Positions 6,101 to 29,831 of a DNA stretch of 64,000 nucleotides are shown here, in pieces (the stretch's first letter is position 1; every line of letters starts with the position of its first letter). This DNA comes from Halorhabdus sp. CBA1104 (GTDB taxonomy: Archaea > Halobacteriota > Halobacteria > Halobacteriales > Haloarculaceae): NCBI RefSeq assembly GCF_009690625.1, contig NZ_CP033878.1, positions 2,356,001 through 2,420,000 of the forward strand, in the 5' to 3' direction. The position numbers were made by a program, and so were the translations under genes. Under the pieces are notes generated by a model. It made no database searches and was not told where the DNA came from. It was given only the letters and a program-made list of their open reading frames with translations.

Positions 6101-7209
6101 AAGCCTTCGTCTTCAGCGTACGCGATGAATAGAAGCCGGTAGAGCTTGATCAGCGCCATCCGGTAGGTCTCGTCCAGCTCGTCCTTCGTGGGATCCTCGA
6201 GATCGCGGGCGTCAGCGATGGCTTCTGCAAGGTCGGGAATGACGTCGTCGTAGATTCGCTCACGAAGACGTCGACCCAACTCGGCAGCGTAATCCTTCGA
6301 GTCGGCCATGATCTCGTGGAGCGACCCCTCGTCTTGGAGAGCGCCCGACGAGAACAGCAGTGATAGGTACCCGGCGTTGTCGTCAGTGAGAAGGTCAGTG
6401 TTAACCTCAACAAAGGTGTCTGTTCGACCACGAGAACCGAACCCTGCATCGGGGTTCGTCGTATACAGTCGCAGACGGCTCTCTGAACTGGCGATGACGT
6501 AGTCAAGATTCTCCTTGTCCGCTTCACTGAGTGCGTAGGATACGGGGGTCTGACCAGTGAATCGGTCCTGAGCGTGGTCGAATGACTCGTCCTCGTTCAG
6601 GAAGACCGCAACCGCTTGTTGCCGACCCTCAGTTGTGTCCTTGAGGATGTAGCTGTGGTCCTGAAGACGATCGACCTCGTAACCCAGCCCCTCAACCAAG
6701 TCGCGTCCTTCCTCGTCCAGCAACCCTTCAGCTTGACCGACTGCGTCCTCCCAATCATCCCGGTCAGGAACGCCGCTTTTCAACTCGTGTGTCGAGAGAA
6801 GCCCCTGATTGCGAAGACCGACTAGTTCTTCATCGATCTGGGCTAAGACGGCGCTGAGGAAGCGCTGTGCAGCGTGGTGGTCAGGTCGATCGAGTGCAGA
6901 TTCACAGATCCTCTCGACCTGCGAGGGCTCGAGATCACGCTTGACGTCAGGATCCTCGCCCGCAGGGCCGATGATGTCGACTGTTTGGCCGCCATCTCGA
7001 AGCACGACGACCAGGATCGGGTTGATGCGCTGGTTCCGACGGTCGGTGTAGAGTCGCTGAAGCCAGCTCTTCTGGGGCCGATCGTCACGTTCCGTGACGA
7101 CGATTTCGAGGCCGTTGGATCCTTCTCCAAGATAAAGGTCACAGTCGGTACTCACACGTTCCGATGTCCATGAGCGTGGAGTTTCGGATGTAAGGAAGGA
7201 ACGAGGCAT
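3109..7209 (-). CDS. Large N6-adenine DNA methyltransferase (Eco57I/type IIG-like)
   Basis: About 1366 residues. Motif I for S-adenosylmethionine binding (SDIAMGSGHFL) is near residue 605, and the catalytic NPPW motif of N6-adenine methylases is near 855. The region before motif I is long and could hold a nuclease or specificity part; the C-terminal third is probably target recognition. I chose the ATG at 7209 rather than the GTG at 7221 because an AT-rich TATA-like box (about 7237-7243) would place a leaderless transcript near 7209. The stop overlaps the helicase start by 4 bases, so both are one operon. The likely role is self-marking, and perhaps cutting, in a restriction-type or DISARM-like system. 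Methylase identity is firm, nuclease activity unproven. Confidence 0.85.
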   Translation of the reverse strand: MPRSFLTSETPRSWTSERVSTDCDLYLGEGSNGLEIVVTERDDRPQKSWLQRLYTDRRNQRINPILVVVLRDGGQTVDIIGPAGEDPDVKRDLEPSQVERICESALDRPDHHAAQRFLSAVLAQIDEELVGLRNQGLLSTHELKSGVPDRDDWEDAVGQAEGLLDEEGRDLVEGLGYEVDRLQDHSYILKDTTEGRQQAVAVFLNEDESFDHAQDRFTGQTPVSYALSEADKENLDYVIASSESRLRLYTTNPDAGFGSRGRTDTFVEVNTDLLTDDNAGYLSLLFSSGALQDEGSLHEIMADSKDYAAELGRRLRERIYDDVIPDLAEAIADARDLEDPTKDELDETYRMALIKLYRLLFIAYAEDEGFLPRHNPRYERRSLKAKAHELHDLREEGVEFDDQATHWDDVMELSRAIHDGHSEWSLPEYNGRLLSSDEDISEAGAKLAEIELTDEQFGPVLANLLIDESEADDIEGPVDFRNIGVREFGVIYEGLLESELSVAEQDLTVDDEGHYTPVDPTGQQELGENDSDVVVEEGEVYLHGQSGERKATGTYYTKTRFVEHLLDHSLEPALDDHLERLDRLREEEGRTAAANAFFDFRVSDIAMGSGHFLVGAVDRIENRLMKYLTRDDVHLPQVEEELDRLREAAEDAFESSEEMPEVERSQLLRRQVARRCIYGVDVNDLSTELARLSLWVHTFVPGLPLAFLDYNLTTGDSLAGIGTLDEVSDILDVDQTNLGMFMGGSSVMNDIEDAIDDLGSFADADAQQVAEARETRERIQDQLEETRAAFDILAASRIDDEIDPEVVNDDGVDLLESEEYEIAQDVLAATNPLHFPTAFPEVFNGENPGFDALLGNPPWDESTLEDKEFWARYIPGFQGKSEQKQEEAKQRLLERRPGLEAELKREKNEKRQRSTILKNGPYDGNSSGGSAPEMYIAFSWRFKHLAGDRGHVGIIVPRGAFSGDNTSDFREELFDTTTIDDLTFLVNTNEWVFEGIHGQMTISLASYHNSEEPGEKLPLRGPYYNEEEYEEGMQGDPHYFSIEDIRSWTTSSVVPLPPSDEASEAFEQLVSHPKFSYDGGDWKPVPVTPLKLAPYEDEELDDGTTLLHRSDHPPEEDFLPVLGGKAFDFWSVDVSKATVWTDPDMIFDYLQEKRENSYRIGSRSPFSEMPEDWVHDKSTLPCYSARVVFRDSTNKTNTRTVLPALAPPNVILLDTAPYLIWPRGDEKDQAFLMGIMGSIPFDWCARRFVENHVSFYLLNGLPVPRPERDSRLWSRMVELSGTLASTDERFQEWADAVGVSCTAHSKDEREEMMQEIDALSAHLYGLSRENLQVVFETFHENWDHEPRMNAVLEHYDEWADRVESEE

Positions 7210-7349
7210 TGACAAGACCACAATCTCGGGAGAGTATTATTCTTTTGTAGTTCCACAAAGCGGAACCCGGTCCTCATCAATAGCGGTATTTGGTGTGCAA
7301 CTAGACACCAAATCATTCATAGTGCTGTCACTATCTGGTTTGGATACGA
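7210..7349. promoter_or_regulatory. Divergent promoter region, methyltransferase / SbcD-like
   Basis: This 140-base gap separates the leftward methylase-helicase operon from the rightward SbcD-SbcC-like pair. It is AT-rich relative to the neighbours, with a TATA-like stretch on the minus strand near 7237-7243 and the sequence GGTGTGCAACTAGACACC at about 7291-7308, which has GGTGT/ACACC ends as an imperfect dyad. No small gene is supported here. Confidence 0.4.
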
Positions 7350-8675
7350 ATGAGTGTCCGGTTCCTCCATACTGCGGACCTCCACCTCGGAAGTCAGCTC
7401 AAAACACAGCATCGACAGGCCACCGAAACGGTGGACACGCTCAGTTCGGCTATCTATACGGCTGTCGAACGACTCTTCGATACGGCGATTGAGGAAGACG
7501 TCGATTTCGTGGTTATCGCGGGTGATCTCTACGACGAAGACTCACGGAGCGTCAAGGCGAACACCTTCCTGAAAGAGCAGTTCGACCGACTCGCTGATCA
7601 GGGTATTCCCGCATACGTTTCCTACGGTAATCACGACCCTGTCGGAAGCGCGACCGACTACGTCGACCTACCGGAGAATGTCTACGAGTTCGACCATGAA
7701 GGCCCTCAGGAGTTCCACTATCCCGATGAAGAATCACCAGCGGCCAGGATCTGGGGGCAATCCTATCGCGACCGTCACGAAAGTCGTTCGATGTACCGCC
7801 GATTCACACCAGCTGACGAACGAGTTCCAAACATCGGCGTGCTTCACACGGGATTGAACCCCGATGGACGGCAGTACGTCCCGGTTGCCCGTAGTGACCT
7901 CGAAAGCAAAGACGAGATCCATTACTGGGCACTCGGCCATATTCACGATCCGCGCATCCACGAGAACGAACAGCCGGTTGCTTATTCAGGTGTCCCGCAG
8001 GGCCGGCAAATCACGGAACCCGGACTTGGGGGTGGCTATCTCGTCGAACTAGATGCCGACGGCGACTACGAAATTGAGTTCGTCCCAACGAGTCCGGTTG
8101 TCTGGCAGACGGTCGAGGTCGATGTCGGAGACGAAGATATCGCTTCGATTCCCGACATTGAGCGCCGTATCGAGCAGACGCTTGAGGATTTCTCCGTACC
8201 TACAGACCTCTTCGACGGGACGAGCGTAACACTTCGCGATCCTGACTGGGGGATCGACGGCTATGTCTGCCGATGGGAACTGACCGGAAACGGACCAGTT
8301 CACGAGACGTTGTCGAATGATGAGGACGCGCTTCACGAACTCACTCGCCGGCTTCGAGACGGCCTCACCTCACGGAAGCCATTCGTCTGGACAGAGGCAG
8401 TCCGGAACTCGACAGGACCGCCGATCCCATCTATCGACGAGCTCCGCGGCGATGATCGGGTGATCGACGAGTATCTGGCTCTCGTCGACGAGCTCAATGG
8501 GGAGGAGGCGCGCGAGCACTTCCGCGATCAAGTTGGTATGGCCTGGGAATCTGTTGATGACCACGAGGATGGTCGCCCGGACGAACTCCCGCTTACCGAT
8601 GACCGGCTTGACGAACTCATCGAACGCGCACAGGAGCGCGTCCTCGAAGAACTGGCACTGCGGAGGGCAACGTAA
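7350..8675 (+). CDS. SbcD/YhaO-like DNA repair exonuclease (metallophosphoesterase)
   Basis: 441 residues. All calcineurin-like metal-binding motifs are present in order: DLHLG near residue 10, GDLYD near 58, GNHDP near 92 and GHIHD near 195. The C-terminal part resembles the capping and partner-binding region of SbcD/Mre11-type nucleases. The stop directly abuts the ATG of the next gene (8676), so nuclease and ATPase are almost certainly translated together as a complex. The match is closer to the YhaO type (paired with YhaN) than to the housekeeping Rad50-Mre11 pair of haloarchaea. The expected role is Mn-dependent cleavage of DNA ends or hairpins; in this island it may serve defence. Confidence 0.85.
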   Translation: MSVRFLHTADLHLGSQLKTQHRQATETVDTLSSAIYTAVERLFDTAIEEDVDFVVIAGDLYDEDSRSVKANTFLKEQFDRLADQGIPAYVSYGNHDPVGSATDYVDLPENVYEFDHEGPQEFHYPDEESPAARIWGQSYRDRHESRSMYRRFTPADERVPNIGVLHTGLNPDGRQYVPVARSDLESKDEIHYWALGHIHDPRIHENEQPVAYSGVPQGRQITEPGLGGGYLVELDADGDYEIEFVPTSPVVWQTVEVDVGDEDIASIPDIERRIEQTLEDFSVPTDLFDGTSVTLRDPDWGIDGYVCRWELTGNGPVHETLSNDEDALHELTRRLRDGLTSRKPFVWTEAVRNSTGPPIPSIDELRGDDRVIDEYLALVDELNGEEAREHFRDQVGMAWESVDDHEDGRPDELPLTDDRLDELIERAQERVLEELALRRAT

Positions 8676-11555
8676 ATGCATCTGAACGACTTCCGAATCG
8701 ACGATTTCGGCTGCTTCAGAAATGCCCGGCTTGAAACACTCGATGACAACCTTATCGTTATCGGCGGTCCGCAGCGAGCCGGGAAAACGACATTCATGCA
8801 GGCGTTGCGGCAGTTCCCCGACGGGGTTGACCGGAGCGACGGCATCCCGCCGGCGACCGACGAATATCGTATCGACGCTGAACTCACGCACAATGGGAAT
8901 CGCTATCGTTACGTGCTGAACGGGCACGCGAGTCCATCCGTGTCGCCCATCGGTGATGGGCCCGAGATTGAGGCTAAAGATATCTTCGGGCCAATCACCG
9001 AGCGGCAGTACCGGAATCTCTACACGATTAGTCTCGATGAACTACGACGACTTCCACCGGGGATTGATGATTCCGAGGACCTCGCACGAATCTTACTTGG
9101 CGGAGCATACGGTGATATCGCGGATATCCCTGAAATTGAAGAAGAATTTAGCGACCAAGCGCACAAGATCGGGCTTTCGAAGGGGAATCCGAACACCAAG
9201 ACGTCGCAGCTCCATGACCCGTATCAGACCGTCAAGGACGGTATTGAGGCACGTAAAGAGGCAAGTCAGCAGGTCGACGAATACCGATCTGTCACACAAG
9301 AGCTCACCAACAAGCGGTCGGAACTAGCTGACCTCAAGAATAAGATAGAGCACCGGCAACGAACACGGGACCGGCTGAATATTCTCCAAGAGCTGTTCGA
9401 CCCCCTGCAACAGATTGAGACTTTGAACGCACGGCTTGAAGACGCCGACCAGGATTTCGTAGAGAAGTTCCCGACGCATCTAACGGATCAGCTTGAGCAC
9501 TTCGAAGAACAATTTAACGCGGCGACGACGGGGCTTACCGAGGCACAACAAGAATTCACCCAGGAGGCGTCGATCAAGACGACCGATGAGTATTACGAGT
9601 GGCTTCTCAAGCATGAGGAGGAGATTGAGTCACTCGCAGAGAATCAAAAGCTATGGGCAAAAACTGCTGAGCAACTTACCGAGCGCCGGGATCAACTCGA
9701 AACCAGAAAGAGAGATCTTGAGCGGGAGATTTCCTCCTTGTATTCGGAGTGGGACGAGTCGTTCACGCATCTCGACGAGATAGAAACAAGTGCCGTCGAC
9801 ACGGCTCAAGTCGACGATATTGTGTCTACGATAGAAGACCTTCAGGCTGAACACGATAGCTTGGAGGAATCTATCGATTCAGACCGGACGCGAAAGAGGG
9901 AACTCGAATCGGAATTGGCCGAGATGGAGGAAGAACACGAGGAAACGAAAGAAATCACAGTTTCAAAGCGTAAGCCGGCGCTTATTGCGGGGATCGCTAT
10001 CGTGGCCGGTACAGGTGTCGGGTTTGTCGCCACTCCCCTCGTTGGTGGGCTTGTTGGACTCGGAATTCTCGGTGCTGGACTGTATGCAATCGACTCGACG
10101 GTTTCCGTCGAGACGACTGTCGACGCCGATCCTTACCGAGAAGTCAAAAGTCAAGTAACGACACTCAAGGGAGACATCGAAGCCGACTCGCAGCGGCGCG
10201 CTGAACTCGAGGAAGAAATCGCCGAAAAAGAAGCAGAGCTGACCGATCTCATAACGGAATTAGGTCTTCCCGAGGAACTCCCGACAGACGACGTCCCTGA
10301 GTTTTACGAGCAAGTTGTCGAACTCGACGAGCAGATTGGTGAGTTTCGGGACGACCGGACGGAATGGGAAGAAGAAAATACAGAGTTCGCGACAGAACTC
10401 GAAGAGGTCGCATCACTACTTGCCGACGTAACGGAGGTTTCATGGACAGCTGAAGATCCGCTGACGGATACCAACGCCCTTCTCTTTACGCTCGAAGGAG
10501 TCGCGGCCGATCTCGAGTTGGCACAGGAGGTTCGACGAGCTGAAACCGAACGCGATGACTGTATTGCGGATATCGATTCTGTACTTAGCAAATGGGACGA
10601 GGAGAAGTCAGCTGGGGCCGCTACTAACGATGACCAGATTCTCCAGCATATCCAAGCATTCAAAGACGAAGCCGAACGGGTCGGACATCTCGAAGACGCA
10701 TTCGAGGAATATGAGCAACTCCAGACACAAGTCACGACACGTTTAGATACGCCCTCTGCTCGGGAAGTCTTCGAACCGCTCCGAGATGGCGACGAACCGT
10801 GGATCGACGTCGTCCAAGAGGCTGCTGCCGAGTACGCTGACACGGATGCAATTGCCGACGATATTCGGGAACAAAACAGCCAGATCGACGAAATGGAGAC
10901 TCAGCGTGAGGAATTGCGAGAAGCCTGCATCGAACTCGAACAGCGGCAGGAAGAACTTGCCTCGGAAGATGATCTGCAAGAGGCACAAGCGAAGATCGAT
11001 GAAGGCCGGGTTGAGTTCGAACGCCTCGGCGAAACCTACGCTGTCAACCGGATTGCTGAAGAGATTGTCAAGCAGCTGCACGAGCGATTGATGGCAGATG
11101 TGGTTCACTCGCTCGTCGATGATGCGAGTAGCATCTTCAGCGAGATCACGCAAGAGTACGATGGAATCGAACTGAACGGCGATATTCAGGACCTTGAATT
11201 CCGTGCGCTCCGGGAAGACAAGCCTGCCCACGGCGTTGGTGAGTTGAGTCGCGCGACTGGAGAACAACTCTTCCTGGCTGTTCGGTTAGCCCGAATCCGA
11301 CAGACGGATGTCTCGCTCCCAGTCGTACTCGATGACGCTGCTACGAACTTTGATCCTAATCATATGAGCCGCGTATTCGAAGTCATCGACCAGCTAACGG
11401 AATCGAATCAGGTGTTCTTCCTTACTTGCCATCCTGAGTGCGTCCGTATAACAGCGTCAAATGACCTCTCTGCACAGTACTGGTCACTCAATAGTGGACA
11501 GTTCACTCGGCGTGAAACTGCCGATACTTTAGAACAAACTCTATCGGCTGATTGA
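8676..11555 (+). CDS. SbcC/YhaN-like AAA ATPase with coiled coils and membrane hairpin
   Basis: 959 residues. Walker A (GGPQRAGKTTF) lies near residue 31. The ABC signature is the variant LSRATGEQL near 857, followed by Walker B and D-loop (LDDAATNFD) near 886. Long acidic coiled-coil segments fill about 170-425 and 480-830. Between them, residues about 432-475 form a strongly hydrophobic hairpin (glycine/alanine/valine-rich), as in YhaN-type proteins and unlike Rad50 with its zinc hook (no CxxC is seen). It follows the SbcD-like gene without a gap. The predicted role is an ATP-gated clamp that controls the nuclease, possibly anchored in the membrane. Confidence 0.82.
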   Translation: MHLNDFRIDDFGCFRNARLETLDDNLIVIGGPQRAGKTTFMQALRQFPDGVDRSDGIPPATDEYRIDAELTHNGNRYRYVLNGHASPSVSPIGDGPEIEAKDIFGPITERQYRNLYTISLDELRRLPPGIDDSEDLARILLGGAYGDIADIPEIEEEFSDQAHKIGLSKGNPNTKTSQLHDPYQTVKDGIEARKEASQQVDEYRSVTQELTNKRSELADLKNKIEHRQRTRDRLNILQELFDPLQQIETLNARLEDADQDFVEKFPTHLTDQLEHFEEQFNAATTGLTEAQQEFTQEASIKTTDEYYEWLLKHEEEIESLAENQKLWAKTAEQLTERRDQLETRKRDLEREISSLYSEWDESFTHLDEIETSAVDTAQVDDIVSTIEDLQAEHDSLEESIDSDRTRKRELESELAEMEEEHEETKEITVSKRKPALIAGIAIVAGTGVGFVATPLVGGLVGLGILGAGLYAIDSTVSVETTVDADPYREVKSQVTTLKGDIEADSQRRAELEEEIAEKEAELTDLITELGLPEELPTDDVPEFYEQVVELDEQIGEFRDDRTEWEEENTEFATELEEVASLLADVTEVSWTAEDPLTDTNALLFTLEGVAADLELAQEVRRAETERDDCIADIDSVLSKWDEEKSAGAATNDDQILQHIQAFKDEAERVGHLEDAFEEYEQLQTQVTTRLDTPSAREVFEPLRDGDEPWIDVVQEAAAEYADTDAIADDIREQNSQIDEMETQREELREACIELEQRQEELASEDDLQEAQAKIDEGRVEFERLGETYAVNRIAEEIVKQLHERLMADVVHSLVDDASSIFSEITQEYDGIELNGDIQDLEFRALREDKPAHGVGELSRATGEQLFLAVRLARIRQTDVSLPVVLDDAATNFDPNHMSRVFEVIDQLTESNQVFFLTCHPECVRITASNDLSAQYWSLNSGQFTRRETADTLEQTLSAD

Positions 11556-11660: not shown

Positions 11661-13862
11661 GTGTCTAGCTATCAGATGGCGTACTCTCTCAACGCGTTTG
11701 AGTTAGAAATTCCGGATATCGATGCAGACCTGTACAAACTAGACCCCCAACCATCGGATGATCCTTACCGAGTTCTCGGTCGGTTAGAGAGAAGCTTTGA
11801 GCAGCAACTTGACGGGAAAGCGCAAAAGTGGAAACAAGCGGAGGACGGAGATTGGTATATTGCCGTCATAGATGCGAGCGAGCGGAAAACCATCGAATCT
11901 CCCAGTAGTGGTACGAGTGCTACTCCTACATCGACTCACACGTTGGATCCATCGTCTTTCTGGGACCGAATGGTCCTCCAACGAGCAATCTCGGATTCTG
12001 TCCAATGGTACATGACGAATTACCAGGACTTCTGGTATCACGAGGACGCAGACGCACTATTCTATCCCTCCCCTCGCGGTAAAGTCGATGAGTATGATGT
12101 GTACACGGGATTTTCGCACAGAGTCGAATTCCAGGACAGTCCACAGTTAGTGGTGAGATCGGTTACCAAGTTCATTAGTAGTGAGTCGCTCGCAGACCGA
12201 ATCAACCGCCAAGGGATTGAGGAAGCCACAAAGAAGTATGGTGGCGAGAACTTCAGGCTTGATCGTCCTGAACCCACTAAATGTACGCTTCACGGCATCT
12301 CGACGGAGAAGAAGGTCTCGGACAAAACCATCGACTTTGGAGATGAGATGCTCTCCGTACTTGAATTTGCACAGCGGGAATACGGGAGCGAATGGGCAGA
12401 CAAGATAGACCCTGACGAACCATTAGTCCAAATCCGATTCGGGAACAGTGATCCGTACGATACCTCCCCTTCGCTGTTGAACGCATCTCCTGAAGAACTG
12501 AACCACCGCTTAACCAGTGAGGCCGCACTGTCCGCAAAAGAACGGCAAAAAGCCATTCAGAATTTCATCGGTCGAATTCACTACATTCAGGTCGAAGACG
12601 AGAAAGTGTCCGTCAGCGATGACGGAGTGAGACCAACCGAGCAGGGTGACTTCGATTACCCGGACTTAGCGTTCGGGAACGATGAGGTCCTCTCGACTGG
12701 CGCGCCAAACGCTGTGGATCCGAGCCAAGAGGTCCACCCTGGAAACTGGCGCTGGATTACCCGTGACTACCTTGAGGAGTACGGGTTCTGGGAGTCACAG
12801 AGGAAGCTATCCGAAATCGTACTCGTATATCCTGGGGGAGAAGAGACGCGGGCTGAAAACCTCTATCAAGATGTCCGGGAGAAACTCTCAGAGATCGGTG
12901 GAGTCCAAATCCGGTCCGACCCTCACCGTGTTTGCTATACTGATCAAGTGGAGTTCGACGAATGGGTGGCTGAGTTCGGCGACTCTATCGACGGCGTTCT
13001 CGGTCTTATTGAGGGCGACGGCGACGAATATTACGAAATCATCGATGCATTCGGAGGTGCACCAACCCAGTACGTGAACACATCGACCTACTCTGAACAT
13101 CGGGGGGCATCTGACGACGTCATCTTCAACACGGCTTGTGGACTCGCCGTTAAGTTGGGTGCGTACCCGTTTGGTCTCGCAAACGACCTCAATTCAGATG
13201 TGTATCTCGGGCTCAGCGTCGCTGGAGATCGATCCACAACGGCAACCGCCGTTGCTATCGACGGACGGGACGGCAGGATTCTCTACCAGACCGAAGAGCC
13301 ACTCGGTCAGGGTAGCAGCACTGTGTCAGAGGGATACCCTGCCAAGCGAATTATCCAACGGAGTCTGAAGACAGCCAGCTCAGCATTTGACCGCCCAATT
13401 GAGTCATTCGACATTCATCGGAACGGTGATTTTGGGGACGCGGAGCTAGAAACGCTATCATCAGAACTTCCTGCGCTTCAGGACCAGAAATACGTGCACA
13501 CCGATGTTTCGTGGTCAGCGGTTGAAGTCATCGAAAACCACCCATATCGGTTGTTCTCAGAACGAGGGGACCGTGCTCCGGACACGGGTGCATACGCTAA
13601 ATTAGACGACGAACACGTGTTGGTCACCACGTTCGGTGAGCCGCAGATTCACCAAGGAACACCCAAACCAGTTCTGTGTAAGAGACGAGCTGCATCTCAG
13701 GACCAGGACATCACAGCCATCGGTGAAGATGTCTTCAAGTTGTCTCTCCTGAACTGGGGCTCGCCGATGATGAAAATGAAGCCGCCGGTGACGACCAAGA
13801 TTCCGAAGGAGCTCAACGAAATTTTCGACAAGTGTAGTCGCGTTCGCTATCCGCCGTTCTGA
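11661..13862 (+). CDS. Long prokaryotic Argonaute with degenerate PIWI catalytic residues
   Basis: 733 residues from GTG 11661 (or 728 from ATG 11676). The C-terminal 300 residues are a PIWI domain and can be aligned by eye with Natronobacterium gregoryi Ago. The catalytic aspartates look replaced: GIDV becomes GLSV (Ser near 519), HRDG becomes HRNG (Asn near 588), and the final TTAYAD becomes TTKIPK (Lys near 716). A loose YPAKRII segment near 550 is all that remains at the glutamate-finger position. This is the state of long-B pAgos, which bind a guide and target and signal to a partner effector. The gene starts 105 bases after the SbcC-like gene, and its end overlaps the convergent peptidase gene by 16 bases. 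The Argonaute call is good; the inactive state is inferred from manual alignment. Confidence 0.8.
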   Translation: MSSYQMAYSLNAFELEIPDIDADLYKLDPQPSDDPYRVLGRLERSFEQQLDGKAQKWKQAEDGDWYIAVIDASERKTIESPSSGTSATPTSTHTLDPSSFWDRMVLQRAISDSVQWYMTNYQDFWYHEDADALFYPSPRGKVDEYDVYTGFSHRVEFQDSPQLVVRSVTKFISSESLADRINRQGIEEATKKYGGENFRLDRPEPTKCTLHGISTEKKVSDKTIDFGDEMLSVLEFAQREYGSEWADKIDPDEPLVQIRFGNSDPYDTSPSLLNASPEELNHRLTSEAALSAKERQKAIQNFIGRIHYIQVEDEKVSVSDDGVRPTEQGDFDYPDLAFGNDEVLSTGAPNAVDPSQEVHPGNWRWITRDYLEEYGFWESQRKLSEIVLVYPGGEETRAENLYQDVREKLSEIGGVQIRSDPHRVCYTDQVEFDEWVAEFGDSIDGVLGLIEGDGDEYYEIIDAFGGAPTQYVNTSTYSEHRGASDDVIFNTACGLAVKLGAYPFGLANDLNSDVYLGLSVAGDRSTTATAVAIDGRDGRILYQTEEPLGQGSSTVSEGYPAKRIIQRSLKTASSAFDRPIESFDIHRNGDFGDAELETLSSELPALQDQKYVHTDVSWSAVEVIENHPYRLFSERGDRAPDTGAYAKLDDEHVLVTTFGEPQIHQGTPKPVLCKRRAASQDQDITAIGEDVFKLSLLNWGSPMMKMKPPVTTKIPKELNEIFDKCSRVRYPPF

Positions 13863-14908
13863 GCCCACTTCCGGTTGACTTTCACTCGATATTTGATTTC
13901 TGAGTCGATTTCGTCGAGAGATTCATCGGAGTTGACTTTCCCCGTTATCCTCGGGAGTTCGTTGTCTACCTCCCGCTGAGCAGCGTCGCTGACCAAAGTC
14001 AACAGATCCTCCGCGACGTAACTATCATAGTCCTCCGGTTTGTTCTGCGTTTGGTTATTCAGGTGGCCATCTATCGAGGCCAACACCGGTTGAACCATTT
14101 CCAAGGCTGATTCTGGGAAGACATCCCTCGTCAATTGGCTTATGAATCTGAGGCGGAGGGCGTTCGGAGGGTGTTCGGTGAATAGGTTATACGGACGCTG
14201 GTTATGCAGGTAATCCGAGATTGCGTACACGTAGGCAGGGCCGAACGTGAGGACACCACAGGCGTCACAGAGGAACTCTGTGTACCATTCGTCCCAGTAC
14301 TCGGCGAAATCTCCTCTCTCCCCTCCCCAGTCAGCGTCGATCTCCCACATCCGGTCGTGATACGCGCGATCCTTCCCGACTTGGTCGAAGAGGGCGTGAC
14401 CCAACTCGTGTGCTAGCAGAGGTTGGTACTGTCTCGGGTTCGCGTGGCGAGGTGCTAAGAGACTGTATATTTCGCCACTCCTTTCTTGCAGAGGGAATAT
14501 TGCGTATGACTCCCAGATCGTCGGAAGTACGGTGATAGAGATGTTCAGCGGACTGCTGACCTCCGAACACACTTCGCTAATATCGTCGATCATCTCTGTG
14601 TCCTCTGCGCGCTGACGAGCGTGGAGTTCGATGTACCCCGTTATTTCGTGGAGGTTATCCAGACGAACATCAAGGTCATCGAGCGCGGAGACGTATCGAT
14701 CATAGAAGTCTGGCACTGAATCTTCTGATGCCTGTGCCAGCGCCTCTTGACGTGTCTTCGCTCTTTCGAGCGTATTCTCGACCGGTTCAAGGAACGTCTC
14801 GTTCTCTTCGTCAGAAAGGCCAGAATCCAGTTCAAGGAGGTCACTACGCAGTTGGGTTAACTGGCTCTCAAGCCTCGTCAAGCGTCGATTAGCGAGCTCC
14901 TCCAGCAA
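13847..14908 (-). CDS. HELGH zinc metallopeptidase with N-terminal coiled coil
   Basis: 353 residues. The zinc-binding HExxH motif (HELGH) is near residue 165 and a likely third ligand lies in TEFLCDACG near 208, a gluzincin-like layout. The N-terminal about 60 residues are leucine- and glutamate-rich and probably coiled coil. There is no signal peptide, so it should act in the cytoplasm. It is the second gene of a leftward pair: its start lies 20 bases inside the end of the upstream gene. Its own end overlaps the Argonaute gene tail to tail. A cytoplasmic peptidase beside a catalytically dead Argonaute could be its effector, but nothing in the sequence proves the link. Confidence 0.75.
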   Translation of the reverse strand: MLEELANRRLTRLESQLTQLRSDLLELDSGLSDEENETFLEPVENTLERAKTRQEALAQASEDSVPDFYDRYVSALDDLDVRLDNLHEITGYIELHARQRAEDTEMIDDISEVCSEVSSPLNISITVLPTIWESYAIFPLQERSGEIYSLLAPRHANPRQYQPLLAHELGHALFDQVGKDRAYHDRMWEIDADWGGERGDFAEYWDEWYTEFLCDACGVLTFGPAYVYAISDYLHNQRPYNLFTEHPPNALRLRFISQLTRDVFPESALEMVQPVLASIDGHLNNQTQNKPEDYDSYVAEDLLTLVSDAAQREVDNELPRITGKVNSDESLDEIDSEIKYRVKVNRKWAQNGG

Positions 14909-15386
14909 GATTCCCTCTCATATGATCCACATTCCGTTTAGAAGTTTCCGACGTGAACTCCTCGACTCGCTGAAGAAGTTGCTTGGCCTTGTTCAGCCCT
15001 GACTCGCATCGTAGACTCTCGGAAGACTTCGCCAACGCAGTAGTGGCGGTTTCTAGGTCCCGGCTGAACTGTTTGGCCGTCTGCTTGCGCCCCGTGGTTC
15101 GAAGATGGTCCGCTAACGCGAGGTAATAACTCGAAACCTCATTCGGGTTCTGTAGAGCGTCACGGACCCCCTGCAAGATCTTGCAGCCATCTTCCAGGTT
15201 TTCCCTCACCTCCTGTGACGTGTACACTCCGAAGTCGTCGCTCTCGTTTTTGAGTATAGCGATGGCTAGCAAAGCGTCGTCGGCAGTTTCGTTGAGGCTT
15301 TGATTGGCCTCGTATTTACGCTTTGCTCGCCAGAGCGACATCCTGAGGTAGAACGTAGTAGGTCTGATACAATAAATTTTCGCCAT
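14889..15386 (-). CDS. Helical protein of unknown function, partner of the metallopeptidase
   Basis: About 165 residues starting at MAKIYCIRP (a longer start at 15437 exists). I recognise no family. The sequence is rich in Leu, Ala, Glu and Lys with heptad-like spacing and no membrane segment, consistent with an all-helical or coiled-coil protein. It overlaps the metallopeptidase gene by 20 bases, so it is translated just before it and is a plausible regulator, inhibitor or substrate of that enzyme. It faces away from the ATPase-nuclease gene, with about 170 bases of shared promoter space. Confidence 0.6.
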   Translation of the reverse strand: MAKIYCIRPTTFYLRMSLWRAKRKYEANQSLNETADDALLAIAILKNESDDFGVYTSQEVRENLEDGCKILQGVRDALQNPNEVSSYYLALADHLRTTGRKQTAKQFSRDLETATTALAKSSESLRCESGLNKAKQLLQRVEEFTSETSKRNVDHMRGNLAGGAR

Positions 15387-15554
15387 ATCGACCTCCTTAC
15401 GAGCCGCGTAAGGGGCGTACGGAGCTAGCAATTCCAACGTTCAATTTGGAGTCGATAGCTCTGCTGAATCGTAACCCCGATTATGAAATCCTCCTGACGG
15501 CGTCGATTTTCCTGCGAACTTTGATAAGAATTCGCTATGTTGCCTTTTCTATTA

Positions 15555-18500
15555 ATGTCGGTATTGTCCGAGCAGGAATTGCGGACCAGATGGCAAGATC
15601 GATGGGACAGTTTTCTATCCCACGTTCGAGAAGCAGATACAGCAGAAGCTGCTCAGAATGCACTCCGGGACAAGGTAATCATCGGTAATGCTGAACGGAA
15701 AATTGCTGGCGGGCACGAAGGGCGAGAAATCCTTGAGCTACTTCAGAATGCTCGGGATGCAATCTGGCAAGGGGATGCAGAGCAGGGCCGTGTCTACGTT
15801 GGCGTCTACGACGAAGGGGTGTTAGTGGCTAATACGGGCAGCCGATTCGATCTCTTTGACCCACAAGTCGAAGACGCCGTCACGATGATCGGCGAGACCG
15901 GGAAGGGAGACGACGATCAATCCATCGGTCACAAAGGTGTCGGCCTGAAATCCATCCTCGCAACGGGTGACGCTTTTGAGATCTTCACTCGGCCGGACCA
16001 GTCTTCCGACGACATCCTTGCTGTTCAATTGAGTCGAGCATATCTCGTCGCTGCTATCCGTAATCGGCTAGGCCAGGATAGCAACATCTCGGATCTTACC
16101 GGCGATCTCGATGATGCGACTCTACAAGAGGTGCTGACAAACAGCAGTCCAGACGAGACGATTCCGCTCACAGACGGGGTTCAGGATTCAATCTCCAAAC
16201 TCCCGCTGTTCAATTTCCCGGTTCCGTTAGCTATGAACGGATCGGAGGCAGATTCCGACCCAGTTCGCTCTCGTGTTCGTGAGCTACTAACTGGCTCCTC
16301 CAGCACTTCGATTGAGAATCAGTTCCGTACTGCAGTGTTCATCCGGTACGAAGATTCTGAGTGGCGCTCACAACTATCCGATATCGGCACTTCGACTCCC
16401 GAAGAGGAGGATACTGGATCGATTGAGGATCGGCCGCAGCGGATTTGGGAGTATCTCTCTGCGACAGCAAGCGAAGATGGGCTCCAACCCGAAACGCTCG
16501 TTCAACTCGGCGGTATTGAGGAACTCACGCTTGAGCGTGCCACTGATGGCGGCAGCGATACCGTGCGCAAAGAACGGTGGGAGATCCAACGCGATTCAAG
16601 CCCGAATGTCGAGACCCCGGATCTCGCACACAGCGAAGTTGATGTCCATATACAGTCACCGGACGATACCGAAACCACCCATCGCTTCGATCAATTCCAA
16701 TTCACGAACGCCCGTCAACACCATACTACATTACTCGTGAACAAGGCTGCGGACGGTGGCTCAGTCCCAACTGCTTCGTACCCTCTCTATCTATTCTATC
16801 CGATCGAAGGAACGAGCGCAGTCGAGCTTCCGTTTTGTCTTCACGGTCGCTTCCGAGTCGAAACGAACCGTAAGGACCTCAGTTCGAACAACTTGGCGGC
16901 GAACTGGAGCGTCCTTCAGGAGGGACTAGATCTCATCGAGTTAGTTGGTGAGGAAGTTGCTATTGCTGCAACCGACCAGGATGCGCCCAGTTATAGCTCG
17001 CATCTTCCGTGGTGTCTTTTACCGTCTATTCCAGATGTCGACGAAATATCGGAACCAACGTCGAACGACGAACTGTTCGACTGGTTCCGCCTCGAACTGT
17101 TCGAGCGACTTGGGGCGACTGAATGCATCCCAACCGTGGATGGGCCACGCCAACCAGAAAATACGCTGCTCCACTGGGATAGTTCTGTCCTCGAAGGCCA
17201 GCTCGCATACCGAACGCTCGTCGACCACCTAGAGCGCTCTATAGCGACCGCTCCAGAGTCGTCACCGCTACTCACTCAGAAAGCACTGAATGCTGTCCTC
17301 GAAATCCCGTCAATGTGGCGCGAGCGTATTCAAATGCTTCTCGCGATCGAGGACGGGCAGACTGCCTCGAAGGCACTACTCGAGGCGTGGGTTGAACAAC
17401 TCGCAACCGGGCTTGCGATGCAAGATGACGATCCGCCGGCCCAGATCGTTCCCGCGGCTGCTGCCAGAACCCTCCTTCGAGGCACAGTAACTCTGCTGGC
17501 AGCTGCAACGGAAGGCGATGAATCTCTTGATGAGACCCTCACCGACCTTGGCGACAGATTCGACAGCATCTATCTCTTACCGTGTCGAATTCGCGAGGTC
17601 GACCCTGATGAAGAACTTGCGCTCGTCACAATCGAACGACGTCAAACTCCGACAGGTGGGCAGCGTACACAGCGTCGCGTTCGATCGGTGATCTGGGATA
17701 TCGAATCGACCACTCGTGATATCGAGCGCCCGCCGACGCCACCGCGAACCTCTAATATGACCGTCTATTTCCTCGATGACGTTATTCAGGAGGACGCCAC
17801 CGTTCATCACGTTCTGAGTACGGCGGGCAGGGTCTGGGGGCTCCGCGCGTACGAAGGCATTCCGAGCTTTGTCCGCTCGCTCCTCGACACGTTCGCTGAT
17901 GGGCGACACGAAACAGTCGAACCAATCGACTTCGCGTTTCTAACTGCGCTTGTTGATCGCATCGGAGCCGAATCGGACGACCTGCAGATGGGAGAAGGCG
18001 ATTTCTTCCCGCTCTCATACCTCGAAACCGCGATCACACAACAGGAAGGCGATCAGCGAGCGAATCTCCGTCGACGGGTACAGCTTCGTACCTGTGATCT
18101 CCAACTACATCGAACGCAGCCGGAACCGATTGCAGAAACCGTTCTCTCGGATGAGTGGCAGTCAGTTCGCGAGCGAGCACTCAGATCCGATGAAGAAGAG
18201 CAGGCAGATAATGACGGCGAGGTGACCGCGGATTGGACTGACGTCCCTGCAGATCAGTATCCCGCCCCGACGTGGCCGATCCCGGACACAGAGACATGGG
18301 CGACCTTTCGTGAACAGATCAAACGGGACGTTTCGGACGCTGATTTCGTCCGCGCTTTGTCTCTCCTTGGTACGGGTTCGTTGCCGGGCGTCAGCGTTCT
18401 CTGGATGTACGGTGACGACCACCCTTCGATGCGTCGGGACCACCATTGGAACCCGACGGAGTGGGGTGGTGACGATTTCACCGATTCTGTGCCTGATATC

Positions 18501-21500
18501 GTCCAAAGATTACAGACGACTCTTTCGGGGAACACAGACTATGCATCACTTCTCACCGGTGTAGAGCATCATCCGCAGGTTAGTGCCGATCATTCCCCGA
18601 AATGTAACGTCAAGACAGATGGTGAACTCTCTCAAGTAAACCTGGCCTCGTGGGTCTGGATAGATGACCCTGAACGTCTTTCTCAGCGCGCCCATGCGGT
18701 TCGAGAGGTTCTCCGCCGACACGGTGATGCACTCGTCTCGACGCTCTTGCAGACCGGCTGGTCGTGTAACAACGGCCACAAGCGACGGTCGTGGGCCTCG
18801 TCAGTCCCGAGTCTGTTGAACTGGCAGCTTCGCAGCCTCGAGATCTGGGGTCCTGTTGTTGATGTCGAAGATGAGCTCGCCGAACAGTGGGCTGAGTATA
18901 CCTCGCAGCTTCGCTTTGCCGTACGGAAGGAAAGTAGCCGTGGCGCACAGGCTGCTCGGATGTTTCCGCACGTTGACGAGGATAGCGGGTTCTCCGAGGA
19001 GCTACTCGATACGCTTGACGTTCAACCTGTGAACGACCTCGGGCCAACCGGTGCGACGAGACGGCTACAGCAGTTGCAATCTGTTCTGGTCGATGGACCA
19101 CTACCAGATGATGATCCAGCGCGTCTCTGGATTCCAGGTGAACGCATCAACGACTGGAATCAAGCGTATACTCAACTCTTACAACCGTTGGTTCGAGAGT
19201 TCCCAGACGATTCAGCGGATCAACGCGACGAACTGGACTGGGGTGCCTTGACGCACCTTCCGCTGCGTGACGGCGACCAGTGGCTGACGGCACCTATCGA
19301 GTGGATTCAGGACAATACAGATCAGATCCGCTACTATCAGGATCAGTCTCCCAAACCGTGGGAGCTGCAGACCGCCGAAGAAAACGACTACTATATTCTT
19401 CCTCGACCGAGAAGCGGGCCGTTCGTTCGGCTGGCGACAGCACTCGGAGTTGACCAACTACAGGCATCGAAGCTCGTACTCGATCTGGAGAATGATGACT
19501 TAGCCGTCGTAACTGATCAGCACACCGGCCGCGTCGCCGAGTTCCAACAGGCCTTGACGGAACGGCAGGATCTTCTCGTTGCTTCGACGGAACGATCCGA
19601 TGAGGAAGAAATCGTAGATACTGCAGAAAATCTCGCAACTGCTGCAACAAATATCGCTGTCGTAGAAGCGTTCCCCGACGATGTGCTTCGACAACTGTCA
19701 GATCCCGCATCTGCACTCTATAGGACTGACGACGGCAATGAGGCCCTCCTCCTGAATGCCGCCGAAGCCGGTGATTCACTCTCGTTGCAAGGGCTTTCAA
19801 TGGGGATCGCCCTGCTCGTCGAACGACCGACGAAAGTTGCTACCTTCCGGGAGGCACTGCGCAGCGACGTCGAGGTCGATGAACTCGAATCACGCTGGAA
19901 GAAGCGGACGTTCCCAATCGAGGCGGTCAAACAGGTGCTCGGATCGAACGCGCTTCAGTCGTTTGAACGCGATGTCGGAGCAGTCAACGATCTGCTTGAC
20001 CGGCTCGATTGCTCGTCAGTTGATGCTGATCCGCTTCTCGATGCGCTTGAGGATGCAGACTCCGATACGATCGGCTTCATCCGGGAGTGGTACGCAACGG
20101 GCGAACAACCGAATCTTGACGCCGATGTTGACCACGATCTCACAGACCTTGCTCCGACGATCCGAGAATGGATCGATGGTGTCCACGCAACACTTCCGGA
20201 CAAGCTGCAGTTCATCGCTGCGGGCCTCTTCTCCGAGACGGCTACCTATTGGGTTCGCGAACTGGAAGCACAGGACGTTGATGAAGCAACCGTAGCTGTT
20301 GTCATCAATTGGCTCGATGCTCACCGCGGGGCACTCGACCGACCACCGTTCGATAGCGATGCCAGACAAGCGTACGTGCGCCTTCGAACCGTCGCCGAAC
20401 TCTGGGAACAGACCGATCCCGCAGAACTCACTGAACTCAACACTTGGAGCGAACGACTCCGCGAACTCCACTCATCTGCGTCTCCCGAATGGTCGGATTC
20501 AATCCCCGAATCGTATGCGACAACGCTCGGTTGCCCGCCGTTCGTTGCGCACGTCAGCATCAACGACCGAATTCAGACTCTCCTTGAAACCTTCTGTGAG
20601 GACATCGACAGTAAACTGCCGGAGGTCGACTTCGACTGGGAAAGTCTCGTTATCACCTACGTTGAGGAGGAGACGATTCCGGAACCGGAAACTGATCGAG
20701 GGGCTAAGGACCATCAAGAGCGAGCGTTTGCAGATCTCGCGACAGCGATCGATACTGATGGCGAAATCGCGGGCGGGAGTTCTGATGGCTCCATAGTTCC
20801 TGAAGGCGTCGAGGTAGCTGGTACTGATAGTTCTCTCTCTGTCTCGACTGGTGGCGGCAGCGGCGGTGGGAGTACACAGTATCGCGGGCGTGGCCAGCAA
20901 GCAGAAGCGTACGTTATGGCTGGTGTCCTCGATCGAATCGCCACGTGGCTTGACGAGCATCCTGCTGGAGACATTCGCCAGTTCCGCTCCCGGTTCAAAC
21001 GGTTACATTCTAATCAGCAGGAGCGGTCATACAAATGGCACGTCGAGAACGTGTGGTCGTCCGATCTCCTCCCACTCTTGGGAGACTTAGAAGCGTTGAA
21101 TCACAGTACGATAAGCAACTGGCGAGCAGAAGTAGATGAAGATTCGTTCGCCGGGTTCCCGCTCGTTCGTCTCGTCAATGTCACAATGGAACGGGGACCA
21201 GGATTCGACGTCATCGATCCCCTTGGACCGCTTTCTGATGACGAAGGGACCGATGATTTTGGCCTCCAGTTCGTTCCCGTGGAGGTCAAAGCCGTGAACG
21301 GAACCACCCCGCCATTTAATTTCCGGCTCACAACAAACGAGTACCGTCAAGCCAAGGCATTCGTTCGGGACGGGGATATTCCGTACGTTATTCGTCTTGT
21401 CTCGGTTCCTGATGCTGGAACCCCAGATTGGCCGTCACAAACAGAAATCGCGGCAGAAAAAGTTCTGAGCACCGAAGCAGAGCTTGAAGCAGTCGTGGAG

Positions 21501-21557
21501 TCCCAACGGTTCGAGGAAGTAGTCAAAGGCGGATACATGAATATGCGGATAGAGTAG
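15555..21557 (+). CDS. Giant GHKL-ATPase protein with C-terminal DUF3883 (NO VEIN)-like nuclease fold
   Basis: 2000 residues from the ATG at 15555 (a TTG at 15537 is in frame). The N-terminus is a sacsin/Hsp90-type Bergerat ATPase: N-box ELLQNARDA near 60, G1 region (YDEG...NTG) near 90, G2 loop GHKGVGLKS near 125. The middle about 1500 residues are unassigned. A natural GGGSGGGS linker sits near 1765. The last about 130 residues resemble DUF3883, with a possible PD-(D/E)xK core (GFDVID near 1880, PVEVKAV near 1908). Proteins of this plan occur in bacterial and archaeal defence islands, where ATP-driven conformational change may release a nuclease. It stands alone in its transcription unit downstream of the divergent peptidase operon. 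Confidence 0.8.
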   Translation: MSVLSEQELRTRWQDRWDSFLSHVREADTAEAAQNALRDKVIIGNAERKIAGGHEGREILELLQNARDAIWQGDAEQGRVYVGVYDEGVLVANTGSRFDLFDPQVEDAVTMIGETGKGDDDQSIGHKGVGLKSILATGDAFEIFTRPDQSSDDILAVQLSRAYLVAAIRNRLGQDSNISDLTGDLDDATLQEVLTNSSPDETIPLTDGVQDSISKLPLFNFPVPLAMNGSEADSDPVRSRVRELLTGSSSTSIENQFRTAVFIRYEDSEWRSQLSDIGTSTPEEEDTGSIEDRPQRIWEYLSATASEDGLQPETLVQLGGIEELTLERATDGGSDTVRKERWEIQRDSSPNVETPDLAHSEVDVHIQSPDDTETTHRFDQFQFTNARQHHTTLLVNKAADGGSVPTASYPLYLFYPIEGTSAVELPFCLHGRFRVETNRKDLSSNNLAANWSVLQEGLDLIELVGEEVAIAATDQDAPSYSSHLPWCLLPSIPDVDEISEPTSNDELFDWFRLELFERLGATECIPTVDGPRQPENTLLHWDSSVLEGQLAYRTLVDHLERSIATAPESSPLLTQKALNAVLEIPSMWRERIQMLLAIEDGQTASKALLEAWVEQLATGLAMQDDDPPAQIVPAAAARTLLRGTVTLLAAATEGDESLDETLTDLGDRFDSIYLLPCRIREVDPDEELALVTIERRQTPTGGQRTQRRVRSVIWDIESTTRDIERPPTPPRTSNMTVYFLDDVIQEDATVHHVLSTAGRVWGLRAYEGIPSFVRSLLDTFADGRHETVEPIDFAFLTALVDRIGAESDDLQMGEGDFFPLSYLETAITQQEGDQRANLRRRVQLRTCDLQLHRTQPEPIAETVLSDEWQSVRERALRSDEEEQADNDGEVTADWTDVPADQYPAPTWPIPDTETWATFREQIKRDVSDADFVRALSLLGTGSLPGVSVLWMYGDDHPSMRRDHHWNPTEWGGDDFTDSVPDIVQRLQTTLSGNTDYASLLTGVEHHPQVSADHSPKCNVKTDGELSQVNLASWVWIDDPERLSQRAHAVREVLRRHGDALVSTLLQTGWSCNNGHKRRSWASSVPSLLNWQLRSLEIWGPVVDVEDELAEQWAEYTSQLRFAVRKESSRGAQAARMFPHVDEDSGFSEELLDTLDVQPVNDLGPTGATRRLQQLQSVLVDGPLPDDDPARLWIPGERINDWNQAYTQLLQPLVREFPDDSADQRDELDWGALTHLPLRDGDQWLTAPIEWIQDNTDQIRYYQDQSPKPWELQTAEENDYYILPRPRSGPFVRLATALGVDQLQASKLVLDLENDDLAVVTDQHTGRVAEFQQALTERQDLLVASTERSDEEEIVDTAENLATAATNIAVVEAFPDDVLRQLSDPASALYRTDDGNEALLLNAAEAGDSLSLQGLSMGIALLVERPTKVATFREALRSDVEVDELESRWKKRTFPIEAVKQVLGSNALQSFERDVGAVNDLLDRLDCSSVDADPLLDALEDADSDTIGFIREWYATGEQPNLDADVDHDLTDLAPTIREWIDGVHATLPDKLQFIAAGLFSETATYWVRELEAQDVDEATVAVVINWLDAHRGALDRPPFDSDARQAYVRLRTVAELWEQTDPAELTELNTWSERLRELHSSASPEWSDSIPESYATTLGCPPFVAHVSINDRIQTLLETFCEDIDSKLPEVDFDWESLVITYVEEETIPEPETDRGAKDHQERAFADLATAIDTDGEIAGGSSDGSIVPEGVEVAGTDSSLSVSTGGGSGGGSTQYRGRGQQAEAYVMAGVLDRIATWLDEHPAGDIRQFRSRFKRLHSNQQERSYKWHVENVWSSDLLPLLGDLEALNHSTISNWRAEVDEDSFAGFPLVRLVNVTMERGPGFDVIDPLGPLSDDEGTDDFGLQFVPVEVKAVNGTTPPFNFRLTTNEYRQAKAFVRDGDIPYVIRLVSVPDAGTPDWPSQTEIAAEKVLSTEAELEAVVESQRFEEVVKGGYMNMRIE

Positions 21558-27909: not shown

Positions 27910-29736
27910 CTACTCCCGGAGTTGATTCCACGTCTCAAAATCAACCTCTGGGTGCCGAACAGCGACTCGATGTAGCGATTCACCGAGTAACGCACTCTCC
28001 CGGACCGCAGTCCGTGCTTCTTCTTTGAGCGTTTCAACCTCCGTGACGCTCGTCTTTCCGTCGCCAGCCGGTTCTGATGCTGACTCCACGTGAACAACGT
28101 AATCTAGGAGAGCCCCCGTCTCACTCTCCAACTCACCAAGTTGCTCAGCGGCGTCAAGAAGCTCCCTTGGTCGCTCCATAATGACTTCCTCAATGTTCTC
28201 GGCGGCGAACTCCTGCGTCACCTGTTCAGGGACAGCATAGCCGCCACCAACCCTCGTCGAGAGAAGAAGATCCCCGAGCTCTCCATAAGTGTTCGATAGA
28301 ACACGAGTCGCCCCAGCAATCGGGTCGACACGCTCTATCCCAACAGTCTCGATCTCCATCTCGGTAATCGGATGCCGTATTGCCGTGAACGCCCGATAGG
28401 ACCGAATGAACGCACGTGCCGCTTCGCGCGCATCGCCCAGAATACGGTCCTGGTCCCACGCAGGCAGTTCGTCAAACGAGCCAACAAACGGGTACTGGGG
28501 TACCTGAACAACATCAGGGCCACGCGGAGAATCGTCTGTGTCAAGCGAAAGGTGGGGACTATACGCTGAGGCGCGGCCGCTGTAGACAGCGTACGCGCGT
28601 CGTTCCCAGTCTAGCATAGCCGCCGACTGCGGCGTTACATCCCGATACCGCGTGTTGAGTGTTCGATGTGGTGCCGGGTGCGGACGATGCCCAATCGTCG
28701 CCTCCTGAAACTCACTGGCAGAAATGTAGGTTGGCCCCTCAACAGTCCGCTCTTTGAGTATGAGGCTTCCATCATCCAAGGTCACGCCGTCCTTTTGCGG
28801 GATATTCTGTCGGATCGCAAGGAGACGTTCAGCACGCTGTTTGAGGGAATCTGCCTCATTGAGTTCATTACGCCATCTGTCAGGGATGTTGGTGTGGCCG
28901 AATCTGGCTCCGGCGACTGCCCCGGCGATGGCACCAATCGTATCCGTGTCACCACCTCGATTCACGGCTCGTGTCACTGCTGCCTCGACGGAATCCGCTG
29001 TCAACCCATAATAGAGAGCAGTTTGGAGTGAGTCGACGACATACCCGGACGTCGATAGCTGCTGTTCGAACTCGGTCGGGTCGGTTGCTCGCTGGGCTTC
29101 AACGACACGTTCTAATTCAGTCCGCAACTCATCGGGTGCTGCATATCCACCATTGAGCGCTGACTGGAGCGGGTTTTCAACATCCTGAATGAGGTTTGCG
29201 AGCGTTCGATTGAGGAACACACAGCCCCACTGGCAGCGTGGGTCGGCGTGCGTGATCGCTGAGGAGAGCCGGCTAACGTACGTTAGTTCGTCGTGGAACT
29301 GTCTAAAGGAGATAGCGTGGGGTGCACACCGCATGACACTCCCGTTGCCCGCGTTGGACCCTTCCGGGCGGTCCTCCCACACCTCAACGCCGGCGGTGTG
29401 CCAGGGAGTATTATTTCGCAATCGTGCGAGAGAATCACGAGTCATCAGGCCAATATCGAACGGCTCGGTGTCAAGCCAGGCAACGAATTTGTCGCCGATG
29501 TCTGCCGGATCGAAGCCCTGCTGTTCGATGAGGCTGTCCGCAATTCGGAGTGCCATCTCGGTATCATCGGTCACGGTCCCCGGTGGTTGCCCATGAGTCC
29601 CGTGACCGAGCATTTCTGTGACCTCGCCATGCTCTGCCTCAATTGCGGCTTCCGTGTTGAACTCAACCGGGCGACCCAGTGCATCGCCACACGCTAATCC
29701 GAGTAGGCAGCCCTGGGCCCGACTCAACTCTGTCAT
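27910..29736 (-). CDS. ADP-ribosylglycohydrolase with long C-terminal extension
   Basis: About 608 residues from ATG 29736 (MTELSRAQGC). The first about 300 residues are a canonical ARH domain: CGDALGRPVEF, TDDTEMALRIA, NAGNGSVMRCAP and GGDTDTIGAIAGAVAG supply the Mg-binding and ADP-ribose sites. It should remove ADP-ribose from protein or nucleic acid. The other about 300 residues have no recognised domain. It is about 100 bases from the zinc protein gene and 25 bases from the glycosylase-like gene. Next to DNA-repair genes it may reverse DNA or protein ADP-ribosylation, possibly from a toxin that is not in the window. Confidence 0.85.
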   Translation of the reverse strand: MTELSRAQGCLLGLACGDALGRPVEFNTEAAIEAEHGEVTEMLGHGTHGQPPGTVTDDTEMALRIADSLIEQQGFDPADIGDKFVAWLDTEPFDIGLMTRDSLARLRNNTPWHTAGVEVWEDRPEGSNAGNGSVMRCAPHAISFRQFHDELTYVSRLSSAITHADPRCQWGCVFLNRTLANLIQDVENPLQSALNGGYAAPDELRTELERVVEAQRATDPTEFEQQLSTSGYVVDSLQTALYYGLTADSVEAAVTRAVNRGGDTDTIGAIAGAVAGARFGHTNIPDRWRNELNEADSLKQRAERLLAIRQNIPQKDGVTLDDGSLILKERTVEGPTYISASEFQEATIGHRPHPAPHRTLNTRYRDVTPQSAAMLDWERRAYAVYSGRASAYSPHLSLDTDDSPRGPDVVQVPQYPFVGSFDELPAWDQDRILGDAREAARAFIRSYRAFTAIRHPITEMEIETVGIERVDPIAGATRVLSNTYGELGDLLLSTRVGGGYAVPEQVTQEFAAENIEEVIMERPRELLDAAEQLGELESETGALLDYVVHVESASEPAGDGKTSVTEVETLKEEARTAVRESALLGESLHRVAVRHPEVDFETWNQLRE

Positions 29737-29831
29737 ATCCGAACGACACGCTCGCGGAATCTTAAAGCATGGTAACAAGTCAGTTCTCGACAGGCAGACC
29801 CAGTTTCAGTCTGGGCTGAGTCGGCAGGTAA

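Follow-up and report, generated by a model that had tools for sequence, protein, structure and literature searches.

What might a single haloarchaeal protein of about 2000 residues, with an ATPase at one end and an apparent nuclease at the other, do for the cell that carries it? The question is raised by a very large open reading frame (ORF) in Halorhabdus sp. CBA1104, which lies in the 64,000-nucleotide stretch analysed here (the window; contig NZ_CP033878.1, positions 2,356,001 to 2,420,000 of the forward strand). A first-pass annotation had read it as a GHKL ATPase fused to a NO VEIN-like domain, and had overlooked that, to judge from profile matches, this architecture is that of an already named defence family, Tiamat. 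The PADLOC TmtA profile PDLC03964 aligns with residues 17–2004 of 2006 and with positions 3–1533 of the 1538 in the model (E=1.7e-205), which is strong evidence that the gene (15555–21557, plus strand; here tmtA) encodes a haloarchaeal long-form member of this family. TmtA is the lone protein of the Tiamat defence system.

Both the family and its architecture are thus already known. Bacterial forms of Tiamat are 1,400–1,600 aa long, and the relatives retrieved here through their GHKL motifs, of 1,400–1,550 aa, also match PDLC03964 (in four of them with E-values ranging from about 1e-236 down to 0); they carry a C-terminal NOV_C domain (PF13020) that scores above the Pfam cut-off, and an ATPase, a middle region and NOV_C are therefore the usual Tiamat arrangement and not a new fusion. 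The bacterial proteins likewise have an N-terminal sacsin-like ATPase and no obligate partner, whereas the haloarchaeal form is some 500 residues longer, is enlarged at two places in its middle, has an H-C…C-H/C site and belongs to a well-supported clade of its own. What is new is the domain plan of this long form, a NOV_C domain that Pfam misses, a putative zinc module and the sharp boundaries of a single-gene transfer. No Pfam profile matched the 2006-residue protein, including those for NOV_C, MORC, MutL, HEPN, DnaJ and SACS, and a scan of the whole genome with Pfam NOV_C found none. A profile search of solved-structure sequences returned nothing meaningful, and the Hsp90 (HtpG) family profile NF010683 reached 13.3 bits, far under its cut-off of 455. 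One related plasmid protein is labelled 'DUF3883 domain-containing' by NCBI.

The gene itself is intact, as had been claimed. A single uninterrupted ORF occupies 15537–21557 on the plus strand, with 2006 codons counted from the first ATG, and corresponds to genome positions 2,371,537–2,377,554 of a 2.63-Mb single-contig genome, where it is the sole copy. The later in-frame ATG at 15555, which gives a protein of 2000 aa, appears preferable as the start because it is kept in both the 95.6% homologue described below and an 81% homologue, because the second of these no longer has the ATG at 15537, and because a TATA-like element, CTTTGATAAG (15519–15528, plus strand), lies about 27–36 bases 5' of ATG 15555, a spacing expected for a leaderless haloarchaeal transcript. 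This element, retained as CTTTGATAAGA at loci L032 and L002, is a putative promoter for such a transcript. Residues are numbered here from ATG 15537, and six should be subtracted for the 15555 start; all protein segments below lie on the plus strand. Comparison with the 81% homologue shows tmtA to be under purifying selection: the ratio of non-synonymous to synonymous substitution (dN/dS) is 0.081 for the whole gene, 0.053 for the C-terminal domain, which is its most constrained part, and 0.156 for residues 1500–1784, which are under the weakest constraint. Values this low for the gene and its C-terminal domain indicate that neither the ORF nor its motifs are there by chance.

At the N-terminus, the Bergerat/GHKL ATPase domain (about residues 50–210; 15684–16166) is as first described, with an N-box, ELLQNARDA, and a G2 loop, GHKGVG (residues 131–136), both intact. 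NCBIfam NF047352, a sacsin-type ATP-binding profile, scores 57.9 bits (cut-off 50) at residues 63–149, and neither E67, N71 and D74 of the N-box nor the glycines G131, G134 and G136 vary among 20 haloarchaeal homologues. The likeness to sacsin is confined to this ATP-binding part, Pfam recognizing no SACS repeats, DnaJ or HEPN. An AlphaFold model of residues 1–1100, built with a 20-sequence alignment (mean predicted local distance difference test score, pLDDT, 81.6), was compared by Foldseek with the PDB, and the MORC3 ATPase-CW structure came first (E=1.7e-4, about 526 columns), with Hsp90 and TRAP1 next at about 500 columns; the best 50 matches were all MORC, Hsp90, TRAP1 or HtpG. Profile alignment of haloarchaeal with bacterial TmtA covers residues 49–543 and 40–443 respectively (E=1.9e-25), and H436, R445 and N456 are invariant, with H350, R359 and N368 as their bacterial counterparts. 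These observations delimit a transducer-like domain at about residues 215–480 (16179–16976), in which R445 may sense the gamma-phosphate of ATP, by analogy with the middle-domain arginine of Hsp90. A GHKL and S5-type cassette is thus present as in MORC, paraMORC and MutL proteins, although the Halorhabdus protein has no Pfam MORC or MutL domain, a different type of nuclease and a far longer scaffold.

Since the resemblance to MORC3 and Hsp90 cassettes extends over some 500 residues, much of the region formerly left unassigned is ATPase transducer. The first-pass annotation had counted about 1500 unassigned residues and suggested unrecognized regulatory domains among them, which holds only in part: a long middle does separate the two end domains, but the first 500 or so residues form one Hsp90/MORC-type cassette, and beyond the transducer the middle offers a conserved metal-site-like motif and a remainder that is helical scaffold. 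Relative to bacterial TmtA, profile alignment places the expansions at about residues 543–1085 and 1372–1881. Within the first of these lies a putative zinc site, H1019-x3-C1023 … C1077-x3-H1081 (18591–18779), for which metal binding is suggested by the alignment. None of 20 sequences departs from H1019, C1023 and C1077, and each supplies H or C as a fourth ligand between +4 and +6 from C1077, in a protein with only ten cysteines; no equivalent residues were found among those conserved in the aligned bacterial relatives. The motif looks like a zinc module particular to haloarchaea. Further on, about residues 1370–1740 (19644–20756) make up a scaffold that AlphaFold predicts to be mostly helical; it is longer than in the bacterial relatives, which leave a gap in the alignment, and the conservation profile and dN/dS mark it as the most poorly conserved part of the protein.

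The scaffold ends in a low-confidence linker (residues 1741–1783; 20757–20885; pLDDT<50) that contains, at 1772–1779, the sequence GGGSGGGS, in keeping with the GGGS linker of the earlier description. The NOV_C/DUF3883-type PD-(D/E)xK-like domain follows at residues 1785–2006 (20889–21554). Here E1790, D1891, D1894, E1916, K1918 and N1934 are identical in 20 of 20 haloarchaeal homologues, and among 41 bacterial relatives the counterparts of E, D, E and K are present in 90% or more. When the last 237 residues were aligned by hhalign with the bacterial NOV_C region, the match reached E=3e-6 across the D…EVK…NE core, while five other segments of the same bacterial proteins, used as controls, gave E-values of 0.29–0.45. 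The C-terminal DUF3883/NO VEIN-like domain with its D...ExK signature was thus correctly recognized at the outset; it has the order G-x-D … (I/V)EVK … NE of PF13020 and its invariant E, D, E, K and N, although it falls below Pfam detection. In an AlphaFold model of residues 900–2006 (mean pLDDT 78.7), the predicted order after the linker is a helix bearing E1790, further helices, a strand with D1891, a strand with E1916-V-K1918, another strand, a helix that begins with N1934 and a final strand. A predicted structure devoid of a nuclease core would have spoken against the assignment; the predicted order of elements around D1891 and ExK is compatible with such a core, and the top PDB matches, albeit weak, are PD-(D/E)xK proteins. 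Foldseek with the whole C-terminal half gave 37 PDB matches, of which 26, including the top 22, were Hjc, EcoRV, SwaI or SPARDA complexes, Hjc and EcoRV being the most frequent; all had E>1, and the part of the query aligned is not given.

Taken with the family assignment, these features make it reasonably probable that TmtA is a standalone, ATP-gated nuclease, in the Tiamat long form, that cuts viral DNA at a metal site formed by the conserved E…D…ExK residues. The Hsp90/MORC-like cassette of about 500 residues would bind ATP and probably close as a dimer, as its relatives do, an ATP dependence suggested by MORC, MutL and Hsp90. The helical scaffold and the putative haloarchaea-specific zinc site would probably touch or encircle the target nucleic acid, and upon ATP-driven closure the NOV_C domains, held by flexible linkers, could meet on viral DNA and cut it at their metal sites. 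Protection would follow from the cutting, and the trigger would be viral. Precedents exist for parts of this scheme: GHKL-S5 modules of restriction systems have been proposed to use ATP to move DNA and so to link recognition to cleavage, and in paraMORC3 and MutL the ATPase is likewise joined to a C-terminal nuclease (PMC2292703). DUF3883 itself was earlier called a novel restriction endonuclease (REase) domain and reported fused to SNF2 helicases in restriction–modification (R-M) operons (PMC3710099). Tiamat is widespread, and the domain plan and the invariant catalytic-type residues amount to a testable proposal for an ATP-gated nuclease contained in one protein, to which the haloarchaeal long form contributes a conserved metal-site-like module.

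Several points weigh against this proposal. Surveys list the mechanism of Tiamat as unknown (PMC12926258, PMC10482375), and DNA cannot be told from RNA as the substrate, or the cell's own nucleic acid from that of a virus, by sequence. The 2006-residue protein falls short of Pfam's NOV_C, and the Foldseek matches of its C-terminal half are weak evidence, E-values above 1 with the aligned part not given meaning that the nuclease fold is supported and not proven. A TmtA-like protein of 2059 aa from Acholeplasmataceae bacterium UBA6150 (locus L101, 9884–16063) has a C-terminus without recognizable NOV_C; its effector domain has possibly been lost or swapped, and the nuclease may therefore not be required in every member of the family.

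Among other readings, the most serious is that the Tiamat nuclease attacks RNA or host nucleic acid and that the population is protected through shutdown of the infected cell. Many PD-(D/E)xK and other defence effector nucleases do target RNA or lack specificity, and SPARDA complexes, which degrade nucleic acid upon activation, are among the fold matches of the C-terminal half; the broken tmtA copies described below, including the early-ending ORF at L032, the plasmid copy H1 with its IS66 transposase and the pieces in G316, would also suit a gene that is costly to carry. We nevertheless think this rather unlikely, given that the REase designation of DUF3883 and its company in R-M operons, the MORC/MutL-like cassette, and the prevalence of Hjc and EcoRV among the fold matches all point to DNA. 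It is less likely again that the C-terminus is a catalytically silent PD-(D/E)xK fold that binds DNA, attached to a chaperone- or clamp-like ATPase of the kind proposed for sacsin and MORC, even though the N-terminal half resembles Hsp90 and MORC3, whose relatives act without a nuclease, and the L101 protein shows no recognizable NOV_C. A silent domain should have lost its catalytic-type residues, whereas E1790, D1891, E1916 and K1918 are invariant throughout the haloarchaeal set and strongly retained in bacteria, in the very domain that is the most constrained of all.

A more specific version of the proposal that TmtA is a DNA-cutting nuclease, which we put forward only tentatively, is that the haloarchaeal protein is an ATP-closed DNA clamp, whose scaffold and zinc module would sense the structure of invading DNA and license the tethered nuclease in trans. 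If true, Tiamat would combine sensing and cutting of the MutL/MORC kind in one polypeptide, as a prokaryotic counterpart of plant NO VEIN. The C-terminus of NO VEIN gives NOV_C its name, and the plant protein has the same order of Hsp90-like ATPase, long middle and NOV_C; the likeness of haloarchaeal TmtA to it lies in this domain order and may connect the family with a developmental protein of plants whose biochemistry is unknown.

Does the protein work alone? No gene family recurs in most of 26 haloarchaeal or of 55 bacterial tmtA loci, and tmtA is a single-gene system without an obligate partner. Two candidates for an obligatory operon partner were considered and rejected: six of the 26 haloarchaeal loci (L035, L039, L044, L046, L048 and L052) have a gene for a UvrD-like helicase of about 953 aa no more than 10 kb from tmtA, and SbcD-like genes are found at three sites. 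That tmtA is nonetheless one component of a multi-gene system, either with the SbcD/SbcC-like pair or with the pAgo and peptidase genes beside it, we regard as very improbable. SbcD/SbcC-like genes do lie 4–8 kb upstream of tmtA both here and in genome G099, and in G343 an SbcD-like gene lies about 15 kb from tmtA on one contig; yet among 391 haloarchaeal genomes sampled only 11 have an SbcD-like gene, compared with 79 that have TmtA, and six of the 11 have no TmtA. In G099, where tmtA and the SbcD/SbcC-like pair are both present, a different gene stands between them and pAgo and the peptidase are missing from that interval, no partner recurs in most of the named loci, and the closest relative shares tmtA and nothing else.

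That relative, Halapricum sp. CBA1109 (L032), supplies the clearest evidence on how the gene travels. By blastn its sequence is 95.6% identical to that of the window across exactly 15497–21557 (plus strand), with unrelated flanks and divergence at both ends, so that the apparent transfer unit comprises the gene and about 58 bases 5' of 15555, and tmtA moves alone. The closest named relatives are haloarchaea, with this Halapricum nearest, and a quick tree built on the ATPase region unites the 23 long haloarchaeal sequences in a single clade (SH-aLRT 99), in which species of different families are intermixed. Among the 391 sampled haloarchaeal genomes the window protein is matched in 61 and the TmtA profile in 79, while none of the six further members of the same genus in the sample has a tmtA match; Tiamat has been counted in 20 of 382 archaeal genomes, as cited by a 2026 Halococcus study (PMC13321033). 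The phage records searched held no match, and the nine plasmid records with matches are all haloarchaeal. Broken haloarchaeal copies occur in L032, through an early end to the ORF, in L039/G316, as pieces in different frames, in L043 and on plasmid NZ_CP019286.1 (H1), where an annotated IS66 transposase lies within the gene; truncation is among the kinds of damage. Several such copies hint that an active one has a cost.

In Halorhabdus the gene sits in a low-GC defence island, which runs from position 1 to about 44 kb and has its left edge beyond the window; G+C content is 46–59% over this part and 62–68% over 44–64 kb. Besides tmtA, the island's defence genes comprise a type IIG R-M gene, an HKD-SNF2 helicase, a pAgo-like PIWI gene (by PADLOC) and PsyrT, company that adds to the case for an antiviral role of TmtA. 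Upstream of tmtA is an overlapping gene pair (13847–15437, minus strand), one member encoding 353 aa with an HELGH zinc-peptidase motif (a weak Peptidase_M78 match) and the other a 182-aa protein with weak likeness to the N-terminus of IetA; neither has a family over the cut-off. The pAgo/PIWI-like protein (11661–13862, plus strand; 733 aa; PADLOC PprPIWI, E=1e-126) is encoded directly 3' of the SbcD/SbcC-like pair (7350–11555). At 287–7221 on the minus strand an HKD and Snf2 helicase-nuclease (C3a139, DrmD-like) adjoins the type IIG restriction-methyltransferase (E=8.7e-255). On the other side of tmtA, the PsyrT-type helicase (31115–33211, minus strand; PADLOC E=2.6e-256) is followed downstream by a calcineurin-like phosphoesterase (30291–30953, minus strand), a pair that may be a PsyrTA system whose partner is unusual. 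In addition, 27910–29778 (minus strand) encodes an ADP-ribosylglycohydrolase of 622 aa with a long C-terminal extension, whose 305-aa homologue in G099 is encoded immediately upstream of the SbcD-like gene.

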